Positions 2,196 to 3,525 of a DNA stretch of 64,000 bases are shown piece by piece. How positions within the stretch are numbered: the stretch's first letter is position 1; every line of letters starts with the position of its first letter. Made by a program: the position numbers and the translations under genes. Under the pieces are notes generated by a model that saw nothing but the letters and a program-made list of their open reading frames with translations, made no database searches and was not told the origin of the DNA. The DNA comes from Hyphomicrobiales bacterium (GTDB lineage: Bacteria > Pseudomonadota > Alphaproteobacteria > Rhizobiales > Beijerinckiaceae): positions 1,094,001 through 1,158,000 of the forward strand of contig CAKNFP010000001.1 in the NCBI GenBank assembly GCA_930633525.1, written 5' to 3'.

Positions 2196-2528
2196 ATGGT
2201 GTCCAGCGCGTTGAGCTGTATGGATCTCCTGATCGCGGTCATCGCCGAGGTCGTCGCCACCTCGGCGCTGAAAGCAACAGTTCTACCCGTCTTGGTCGCG
2301 CCCCGTTGACAGGAGTGGGATAGGAGCCGTGTCTTGTCACTGACATGGCTCACAATGCCGAGCGGCGTGGCCTTGAGATCTGCGATCTGGTCTGGCGTCG
2401 GGCTCATTTCAGCCGAGAACTGGATAGGGTTCCAGCAAAGCCTGGATTGGCCGGGCTTTCTCGGGTTGGGCCTGATCATCGCAGGTGTCATTGTCGTGAA
2501 CGAGTTCCCCCGCTCGGTCGGACATTGA
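2196..2528 (+). pseudogene. Decayed SMR-family (EmrE/Qac-type) drug/metabolite transporter
   Basis: Two blocks in the same frame match small multidrug resistance proteins. MDLLIAVIAEVVATSALKAT (2220-2279) is the first membrane helix with the essential Glu retained. MPSGVALRSAIWSGVGL...WIGFQQSLDWPGFLGLGLIIAGVIVVN..SVGH (about 2355-2525) is the C-terminal half, with the IWSGVG motif and the usual C-terminus. Between them the sequence has diverged, is shorter than a normal SMR protein, and holds an in-frame TGA at 2307-2309, so no working protein can be made. An intact SMR protein is about 105-110 residues. A good Shine-Dalgarno (GGGGGAGGAGCC) precedes the ATG at 2196. The last 120 bases are antisense to the 3' end of the tyrA-like gene. 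I infer loss of a once functional transporter. Confidence 0.8.
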
Positions 2529-3347
2529 TGTCTGGACTGTGTTCGCCGTCAGCTCCGCCGGAAGCGGCTTCGCCAACGCGTTGGCAGCGTGATCCTCGAG
2601 CTCCAGATCGAGGGCGGCTGCCAGCGTGAAGAACCGACTGCGGACCGCGGCCGAATAGGGATTGGAACGCTCGATCGCCTGGAATACGGCCGGCGAGTCA
2701 TGGCGTACCATGCCAACGGCCTGCATGATGAGATCGAAACTGCGGGTCGTCATGCGTGTCGGCAGCGGCTCCATCTTCACGAGCACTTTGGCGATGAGAT
2801 GGGTCAGCCCCTGGACCACCGCAGCATCCTGGTCGTGCGCCTGCGGGGTCGTGACGATGACATCGAGGCCGAGCGCGCGGCGCAGGAATGCCGCCACCCT
2901 GAAGCCACGGCGGCCGCGGATGGGACAGACGGCAATTTTCAGGCCCGCGAGGCCATCGCGAGCGCTCTGCGGGCCGAAGAGCGGATGCGTCGCGACGATA
3001 TCGACAGTGTCCGGCAGCCCGCGTGTCATGATCTCGGCCGGGATAACCTTGACCGAGCCCACGTCAAGGACGAGCGTGCCGGCGCCGAGATGCGGCGCGA
3101 TCGCCGCCACCGCTTCTTCCAGCGCGCCGACGGGCGTGGCCAGGACCACGATCGGACATCGGGCCGCCGACGCCATGTCGGTGATCGCGACAGTCGGATG
3201 GCCGCTTGCCGATCCCGGGGGGATGGCGGGGTCAAAGGCGCGGATGTGGAAATGAGCGCCGAGGTGCCGGGCCATCAGCCGGGCAAAAGCGCCGAAACCA
3301 ATGATACCCAGAAGGGGAGGCTGAGCGGTATCGTGAGGGACTTGCAT
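2409..3347 (-). CDS. tyrA: Prephenate/arogenate dehydrogenase family protein (TyrA-like)
   Basis: The protein starts MQVPHDTAQPPLLGIIGFGAFARLMARHL, a Rossmann nucleotide-binding start (GxGxxA type), followed by VVLATPVGALEEAVAAIAPHL, VLDVGSVKV and ATHPLFGPQSA. This is the pattern of NAD(P)-dependent prephenate or arogenate dehydrogenases, which make the tyrosine precursor. The start at 3347 is chosen because AGAGG lies about 7 bases upstream; the frame stays open further upstream but without a comparable site. The last roughly 38 residues run antisense through the SMR pseudogene and do not look like the family, so the original stop was probably near 2530. Upstream lies a putative Tyr attenuator (3353-3488), which supports a role in tyrosine synthesis. 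Prephenate versus arogenate preference cannot be read from sequence. Confidence 0.85.
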   Translation of the reverse strand: MQVPHDTAQPPLLGIIGFGAFARLMARHLGAHFHIRAFDPAIPPGSASGHPTVAITDMASAARCPIVVLATPVGALEEAVAAIAPHLGAGTLVLDVGSVKVIPAEIMTRGLPDTVDIVATHPLFGPQSARDGLAGLKIAVCPIRGRRGFRVAAFLRRALGLDVIVTTPQAHDQDAAVVQGLTHLIAKVLVKMEPLPTRMTTRSFDLIMQAVGMVRHDSPAVFQAIERSNPYSAAVRSRFFTLAAALDLELEDHAANALAKPLPAELTANTVQTSMSDRAGELVHDNDTCDDQAQPEKARPIQALLEPYPVLG

Positions 3348-3352
3348 GGGAT

Positions 3353-3450
3353 GACCTCTGCAGGCGGCGCGCCAGAGAGGTCTTTCGGAACAACCGCTGG
3401 CCACGCAGCGGTTGAAAGATGACAAAGCACCTCGCCGCTAAGGAAGCGGC
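3353..3450 (-). promoter_or_regulatory. Putative transcription/translation attenuator of the tyrA-like gene
   Basis: Reading the minus strand after the leader ORF, three structures can form. A hairpin GCCGC/GCGGC (3434-3438 with 3446-3450) brackets the leader stop codon. A perfect 9-bp hairpin CAACCGCTG/CAGCGGTTG with a 6-base loop covers 3391-3414. GACCTCT pairs with AGAGGTC (3376-3382 with 3353-3359), burying the AGAGG ribosome-binding site of the tyrA-like gene. AGCGG of the first hairpin can instead pair with CCGCT of the second, giving mutually exclusive folds. CCTCGCC at 3430-3436 can also pair with GGCGAGG repeats in the leader ORF. The second hairpin is followed by TTCCG rather than a run of T, so termination there would be weak and RBS masking may matter more. 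Confidence 0.5.
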
Positions 3451-3488
3451 GCGTAGTAAAGTCCGGCGAGGGCGAGGCGCTTGTTCAT
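3438..3488 (-). CDS. Putative 16-residue leader peptide with tandem Tyr codons
   Basis: The minus-strand ORF from ATG at 3488 to TAG at 3438 encodes MNKRLALAGLYYAPLP. It ends 90 bases before the start of the tyrA-like gene and contains two adjacent Tyr codons (TAC TAC), the end-product amino acid of that enzyme's pathway. AGGAAG lies about 6 bases upstream. A TTGACA box further upstream places the likely transcription start only a few bases before the ATG, so the ORF may be translated from a very short leader, as known for the leaderless trpL of Sinorhizobium meliloti. Stalling at the Tyr codons would decide which downstream hairpin forms. This rests on codon content, position and hairpins only. 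Confidence 0.5.
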   Translation of the reverse strand: MNKRLALAGLYYAPLP

Positions 3489-3497
3489 GGGCCGCTT

Positions 3498-3525
3498 CCT
3501 AGAGCATTCGCACCTGCACTGTCAA
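3498..3525 (-). promoter_or_regulatory. Candidate sigma-70 promoter for the leader/tyrA-like transcript
   Basis: On the minus strand a perfect -35 box TTGACA (3520-3525) is followed after 16 bases by TCTAGG (3498-3503), a poor -10 match (3 of 6). The predicted start of transcription is within about ten bases of the leader ATG at 3488. Confidence 0.4.

Follow-up and report, generated by a model that had tools for sequence, protein, structure and literature searches.

A tyrosine-codon leader and candidate ribosome-stalling RNA switch upstream of a second TyrA gene in Alphaproteobacteria

The window, by which we mean the whole 64,000-nucleotide stretch of DNA that was analysed, carries on its minus strand a prephenate-dehydrogenase-like gene preceded by a short open reading frame with tandem tyrosine codons and a series of inverted repeats. 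A sequence-only reading of this region had described a TTGACA box, a 16-codon leader, a hairpin over the leader stop, a 9-bp hairpin and a stem holding the ribosome-binding site, and on re-reading the minus strand the coordinates of all five were exact. The same holds for its claim that AGCGG (3439-3435) is able to pair with the CCGCT of either hairpin. We found one additional pairing, absent from that reading, between the start of the leader (3488-3476) and the linker (3431-3419), called P0 here, whose register in the window was assigned by hand. The distance from the leader stop to the tyrA ATG is 90 bases. The features are as follows, with the basis of each in brackets:

3520..3525, minus strand: −35-like box TTGACA (sequence)
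3497..3502, minus strand: likely −10 element CTAGGA, predicted (sequence and inference)
3438..3488, minus strand: leader open reading frame MNKRLALAGLYYAPLP, 16 codons plus stop, from ATG at 3488 to TAG at 3438 (sequence)
3453..3458, minus strand: tandem Tyr codons TAC-TAC, of which the first, placed six codons ahead of the stop, is conserved (sequence, 101-locus alignment)
3419..3488, minus strand: P0, AUGA..AAGCGCC (3488-3485, 3482-3476) with linker GGUGCUU..UCAU (3431-3425, 3422-3419) (partner-swap test)
3433..3451, minus strand: P1, hairpin spanning the leader stop codon, segment 1 (3451-3445) with segment 2 (3439-3433) (partner-swap test, pair counts)
3391..3414, minus strand: P2, perfect 9-bp hairpin, segment 3 (3414-3406) with segment 4 (3399-3391) (partner-swap test, pair counts)
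3407..3439, minus strand: alternative pairing 2:3, AGCGG 3439-3435 with CCGCU 3411-3407 (partner-swap test)
3367..3406, minus strand: alternative pairing 4:5, the anti-sequestor, 3406-3402, 3400-3397 and 3395-3392 with 3371-3367, 3375-3372 and 3382-3379 (partner-swap test)
3353..3382, minus strand: P3 (5:6), 7-bp stem 3382-3376 with 3359-3353, containing the ribosome-binding site AGAGG 3359-3355 (folding, partner-swap test)
2409..3347, minus strand: second prephenate-dehydrogenase-like gene (TyrA paralogue, 312 aa), ATG at 3347 (Pfam, structure-chain match)

From the position of CTAGGA, the predicted transcription start is at most a few bases away from the leader ATG. The same leader is present in the same-genus genome G001 and in Chelatococcus asaccharovorans DSM 6462 (L063). 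By eye, a small transporter-like frame on the plus strand at 2022-2530, which we take to be an SMR-type membrane transporter, is split in the window and open in the same-genus locus L005; the C-terminal tail of tyrA overlaps this frame from the opposite strand.

The downstream gene had been called tyrA-like, which its product bears out with a match to Pfam PDH_N (E 4.7e-15) and whose best solved relatives, at E 4.7e-32, are several chains, 5t9f among them, that bear the name Prephenate dehydrogenase 1. Another gene in the same genome, sitting by eye after an aminotransferase-like frame, passes the cut-off of the TyrA model NF005694, and the gene in the window is therefore a second TyrA and not the housekeeping one. 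Defining housekeeping TyrA as NF005694 above cut-off, we sought it in 53 genomes (39 + 15; G805 has the size and coordinates of G291, and the two were counted once), which cover 30 of the 94 family genomes and leave aside the leaderless class genomes G524, G525, G603 and G796. Leader and housekeeping TyrA occurred together in 31 of the 53 (one, G016, with a doubtful leader), and neither occurred in 18, which represent perhaps seven lineages, 11 of the genomes belonging to one genus. The exceptions were two genomes with the leader and without housekeeping TyrA (G291; L095, Acidisphaera) and two with housekeeping TyrA and without the leader (G515; L101, Acidisoma). This association (31/2/2/18) gives a Fisher value of 5e-10 from genomes that are not independent of one another. 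Elsewhere, at L152, L153 and L155, the gene lies by eye immediately after an aminotransferase-like frame. Our reading of the co-occurrence is that the leader would accompany the role of a second, inducible enzyme. The co-occurrence also suggests a hypothesis open to test, in which genomes retain the leader where this TyrA is a reserve and lack it where this TyrA is the sole one. Among the paralogues themselves, that of L009 (1141-2121; G011) has an extra stretch early in the protein; in L210, L213 and L214 the match begins only at about residue 46-50 and the leaders stand some 490-574 nt upstream, which suggests an extra early stretch like that of L009.

A query of the genome contigs with the single protein gave no match; an alignment of nine orthologues (A1) then found many. 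Among the 397 family genomes, 94 had a match to this alignment at E <= 1e-25 (95 loci, one genome having two copies), and the gene was also found in 15 of 385 class genomes. A scan of named genomes with A1 gave at least 424 relatives, and 80 loci were kept among the matches listed, including Methylobacterium, Bosea, soil-type Brucella, Mesorhizobium, Aureimonas, Roseococcus and other Acetobacteraceae, Marivita, Ruegeria and other Rhodobacteraceae, and others, presumed to span several orders. The comparison of orthologues had been set beforehand as the test that could refute the sequence-only reading, and it came out in favour of that reading: 77 of the 80 named loci among the matches listed have a leader, and across these 80 there is YY in 61, a single Tyr in 15 (e.g. 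SYRAPLP) and none in L072. Three of the 80, L101 (Acidisoma), L111 (Caulobacter) and L138 (Brevundimonas), yielded no leader. Within the family, 84 of the 95 loci (94 genomes) have one, among them that of G016, which is doubtful and without a TTGAC box, and that of G292, which is without Tyr; the 11 loci without a leader are all from genus g33. The named and family sets partly overlap (e.g. L036 and L063). At class level, the three best-scoring new loci (L149, L150 and L151) have YY leaders, and no YY leader was found at the remaining ten. As judged from sequence, many bacteria of soil and sea have the putative leader switch upstream of a second gene for tyrosine synthesis.

In Microvirga brassicacearum (L072/L162; G292) leader and hairpins are kept and both Tyr codons are replaced (CAT TGC; RHCAPLS), so this leader should not sense tyrosine. 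The genome G350 has two copies of leader plus tyrA (G350:C4 and G350:C2; L195 and L205), with leaders ending in GFYYAPLF and GLYSAPLI. A typical alphaproteobacterial leader and tyrA appear in a Solirubrobacterales record (L142), possibly a contaminating contig, and in Marivita the leader is preceded, at a distance of about 450 nt, by an RNase P RNA (Rfam RF00010; L094 1011-1378).

A covariance model of the element (R1) gave 78 matches in 394 family genomes, 74 of them at <=600 nt before the tyrA paralogue (up to 150 nt for 70 of them, and 388-472 nt for the other four, measured to the gene's first matched part). One other match, L227 (G184:C1:3559450-3559568, minus strand), is a YY leader similar in design that ends in KYYPLLT, has a TTGAC box and precedes a gene for a GNAT acetyltransferase (Pfam PF00583), in a genome outside the set with the tyrA paralogue; L228-L230 were weak and judged not to be leaders. 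Among the 385 class genomes, scanned under stricter filters that lose weak matches, R1 matched before the tyrA paralogue in four, and the weak matches L147 and L148 were rejected as spurious. The model missed all eight leaders of genus g32, which also holds G292. These (L217-L224) are YY leaders, e.g. FSYYRPSP, with a TTGAC box and with a different second hairpin, GCCGCC..GGCGGC, followed by four U in five of the eight; by eye, at least three of them allow a stem that covers the ribosome-binding site. This divergence speaks for the Tyr codons being the oldest shared part, and for a putative terminator in that genus.

To describe the leader we started from 110 loci, of which 101 were aligned after removal of L071 (by the start-codon rule, though it has a YY leader) and of eight loci without a leader (L041, L042, L045, L052, L062, L101, L111 and L138); taking out 33 near-duplicates above 93% left 68 non-redundant sequences. 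Leaders were picked with scores that reward Tyr, ATG, TTGAC and lengths close to 15.5, and the counts of these three features, Tyr, box and length, are therefore not blind. Among the 101 aligned loci, 99 have a leader of 15 or 16 residues, a constancy partly built in by the picking score, and 100 have the first Tyr six codons ahead of the stop. TTGAC occurs 35-40 nt upstream of the leader ATG in all 101 (background 0.014 per 45 nt; here too the picking gave a bonus), a spacing consistent with a transcript that would begin at or within a few bases of that ATG, and the gene starts 87-113 nt downstream of the leader stop. Over the 68 non-redundant sequences the first Tyr codon is TAT in 63, TAC in 4 and CAT in 1. 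With Tyr encoded in 67 of 68 and both TAT and TAC in use, what is conserved at this position is the amino acid and not just the DNA. The second position is Tyr in 52 and not in 16, one of the latter (Microvirga brassicacearum) being without any Tyr. The tandem Tyr codons of the earlier reading are therefore conserved in their first member and less so in their second. The residues around Tyr vary by clade: APLP, PQLR (Rhodobacteraceae), APSS (Bosea) and RPSP (genus g32). Chance was gauged in two ways. In shuffles of the region upstream of tyrA in the window, a YY leader-like frame (ATG start, 13-24 codons) arose in 4 of 1000; in a control over the 68 relatives that is blind to the picking score, such a frame was present in 50 of 68 in the forward direction, in 1 of 68 in reverse, and in none in each of 20 shuffle rounds.

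Pairings were examined with a partner-swap test, which compares the duplex energy of a segment with its own and with other species' partners over the 68 sequences, and also within four clades assigned from organism names and resemblance. P3 (5:6) scored strongest of all helices tested (z −9.9; within clades −6.6). P2 (3:4) gave −6.9 and −5.8, P0 −7.0 and −3.7, 4:5 −6.4 and −3.1, and 2:3 −5.9 and −2.3, while P1 (1:2) reached −7.8 overall and fell short within clades (−1.3). Nine control pairs showed no better fit to their own partners (z −1.5 to +3.9), and their positive values imply that relatedness shifts the scores, so the z values are not calibrated and are not probabilities. The sequence-only reading had made conserved pairing in orthologues its second point of comparison, and co-evolving partners were indeed found for both hairpins, the stem over the ribosome-binding site and the swap pairings. 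Across P1 and P2, 90.9% of cells are paired and 7 of 17 pairs show double changes; 2:3 is paired in 91.7% with almost no variation, and is therefore conserved but hardly tested by covariation. P0 can be drawn in 68 of 68 sequences as a duplex of 6 bp or more that joins the first leader codons to the linker, partly as expected by chance; its mean energy is −10.2 with the own partner versus −8.1 with those of other species, and its strands change together, e.g. in L109 and L137. RNAalifold on the whole alignment predicted P2 only, probably owing to competition of P1 with 2:3 and to a register of P3 that shifts from clade to clade, and for that reason the segments were tested individually. In the Bosea-type loci, and also in L149 and L150, the last stem pairs by eye with the start codon and not with the ribosome-binding site, over 8 bp in the clearest Bosea-type case. 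The sets 1:2/3:4/5:6 and 2:3/4:5 are mutually exclusive, as is usual in the logic of attenuation. Comparison across species thus establishes, in terms of conserved sequence, the leader, its Tyr codon, the spacing and the co-evolving helices, in support of the ribosome-stalling layout that had been proposed for the window.

From this layout we infer a tyrosine response, a translational output, an order of folding and a role for P0. The nearly leaderless transcript would begin at the 16-codon leader. When tyrosine is ample, ribosomes would pass the Tyr codons and P1, or a ribosome at the stop, would occupy segment 2; this would let 3:4 (P2) and 5:6 (P3) form and hide the ribosome-binding site or the start codon of tyrA. 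When charged tRNA-Tyr is short, the ribosome would stall on the first Tyr codon and cover segment 1, allowing 2 to pair with 3 and 4 with 5, so that segment 6, with the ribosome-binding site, would emerge unpaired. With the usual ribosome footprint, a ribosome whose A site holds the first Tyr codon should cover segment 1 and leave segment 2 and the first 12 bases free. On a leader without a ribosome, P0 would close the leader start codon and clamp P1, keeping the switch off. The switch would probably let the cell make the second TyrA only when tyrosine is short.

Equilibrium folding lent little to this scheme, and we rejected accessibility of the ribosome-binding site at equilibrium as support for switching. 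Across the 68 sequences and the window, release of the site was not seen and the Shine-Dalgarno sequence (SD) was mostly closed in every state, with a mean unpaired fraction of 0.15-0.19 at 26 of 29 truncation points, a closure that does agree with a site hidden in the stem. Blocking segment 3 raised mean SD openness from 0.153 to 0.188, with a rise above 0.05 in 19 of 68 sequences and a fall in 5; the rise was 0.036 for cognate versus 0.029 for non-cognate chimaeric sequences (p 0.18). For the window the same block moved the SD from 0.00 to 0.03 and the start codon from 0.97 to 0.06 unpaired, masking segment 1 moved SD openness from 0.01 to 0.26, and the forced ON fold left part of the SD in a small hairpin. 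The OFF fold was better than the ON fold by 4.2 kcal/mol on average. With the SD closed at equilibrium and OFF favoured, the switch would have to be kinetic, with 4:5 forming before segment 6 appears. In folds ending before segment 6, the bases of segment 4 paired with 5 numbered 9.4 with segment 3 occupied versus 6.9 with it free, and 8.9 in non-cognate chimaeras.

The same Tyr-stalling leader could instead act by terminating transcription, either intrinsically at P2 or through Rho between leader and gene, with P3 as a secondary feature. The trpL leader of Sinorhizobium meliloti terminates transcription (PMC7298713), and U-runs lie after or near P2 in L106, L059 and L149 as well as at the five g32 loci. 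However, 66 of the 68 sequences have no run of four U within 12 nt after P2. The U-run that in an intrinsic terminator follows a GC-rich hairpin was found after P2 in 2 of 68 and not in the window, and the element is therefore not classed as an intrinsic-terminator attenuator. The strongest pairing score belongs to the stem over the ribosome-binding site, and the Bosea-type loci reach the start codon by a different stem. The rarity of U-runs together with the score of the ribosome-binding-site stem makes translation the likelier target, and we regard termination as a rather unlikely output.

Alternatively, the leader could be a nascent-chain arrest peptide whose sequence, not the supply of Tyr-tRNA, senses a metabolite, as the near-fixed length, the near-fixed end YYAPLP across many genera and the Pro near the end of most leaders listed might suggest. 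The clade-dependent residues around Tyr and the freely variable N-terminal half of the leader speak against this, and we consider it quite improbable. A conserved structured 5′ region upstream of an amino-acid gene could also be a metabolite riboswitch or T-box with an incidental open reading frame, but the structure covers the frame, its stop and its start codon, and no Rfam family, T-boxes included, matched over the element at gathering score in 8 loci, nor at E 5 in the window. Tyrosine T-boxes sense the charging of tRNA-Tyr; in a T-box the tRNA binds the RNA directly and a leader frame is not known. Unlike them, the element here has a leader frame and no Rfam T-box match. Some T-boxes do hide the Shine-Dalgarno sequence, e.g. 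at ileS in Actinobacteria (PMC1262725). To an explanation by riboswitch or T-box we give hardly any credence. Our preferred reading remains a ribosome-stalling attenuator that senses charged tRNA-Tyr and hides or frees the tyrA ribosome-binding site. We think it probable in this translational form and rate it no higher because of the U-runs in genus g32, the poor release in folds of the window and the share of the odds that falls to its rivals; that some Tyr-codon attenuator, of either output, is at work we hold to be very likely.

Vitreschak and colleagues, surveying attenuators of proteobacteria in 2004, reportedly dealt with branched-chain amino acids, His, Thr, Trp and Phe. A comparative paper of 2005 has attenuators for His, Thr and Phe and only T-boxes for tyrosine (PMC1262725). 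The closest known systems differ in several respects. S. meliloti trpL (rnTrpL) is described as a 14-aa leader with a transcript from the leader ATG and two exclusive folds (PMC7298713). The present element likewise has a short leader with codons for the product and two exclusive folds, but trpL has Trp codons, stands before trpE(G) and uses a transcription terminator. Here the codons are for Tyr, the gene is a second tyrA, a stem holds the ribosome-binding site and 66 of 68 sequences lack a U-run. The Corynebacterium glutamicum aroR leader, before the aroF operon, is also an aromatic-pathway leader with a Tyr codon (Phe-Tyr-Phe), and responds to limitation of Phe and not to the availability of Tyr, acting on transcription, according to a review (PMC11802643). 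uORFC-8-2, a Cys leader before cysS in Rhodobacterales with a U-run in all cases (PMC8632094), is likewise an alphaproteobacterial amino-acid leader found by comparison, but has Cys codons, cysS and a U-run where the element here has Tyr codons and tyrA and mostly no such run. In the open-access literature we found no Tyr-specific ribosome-stalling leader (a paper on Enterococcus durans tyrS, PMC3315439, surfaced in the same search); subscription papers lay outside its scope and novelty is not certain.

It is possible, and we put it forward tentatively, that this is the first Tyr-specific ribosome-stalling switch, combining a pairing relay that opens the ribosome-binding site with a helix that shuts the leader's own start codon once it has been used, and controlling a reserve TyrA across several alphaproteobacterial orders. 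If widespread, a Tyr leader would close the gap left by control of tyrosine through T-boxes only and by an aroR leader that does not respond to Tyr. It would also define a class of second TyrA enzymes by their regulation and give a compact, portable tyrosine sensor. If true, these bacteria would hold an inducible reserve prephenate dehydrogenase under the control of a Tyr switch, which at least one genome has before an acetyltransferase gene.
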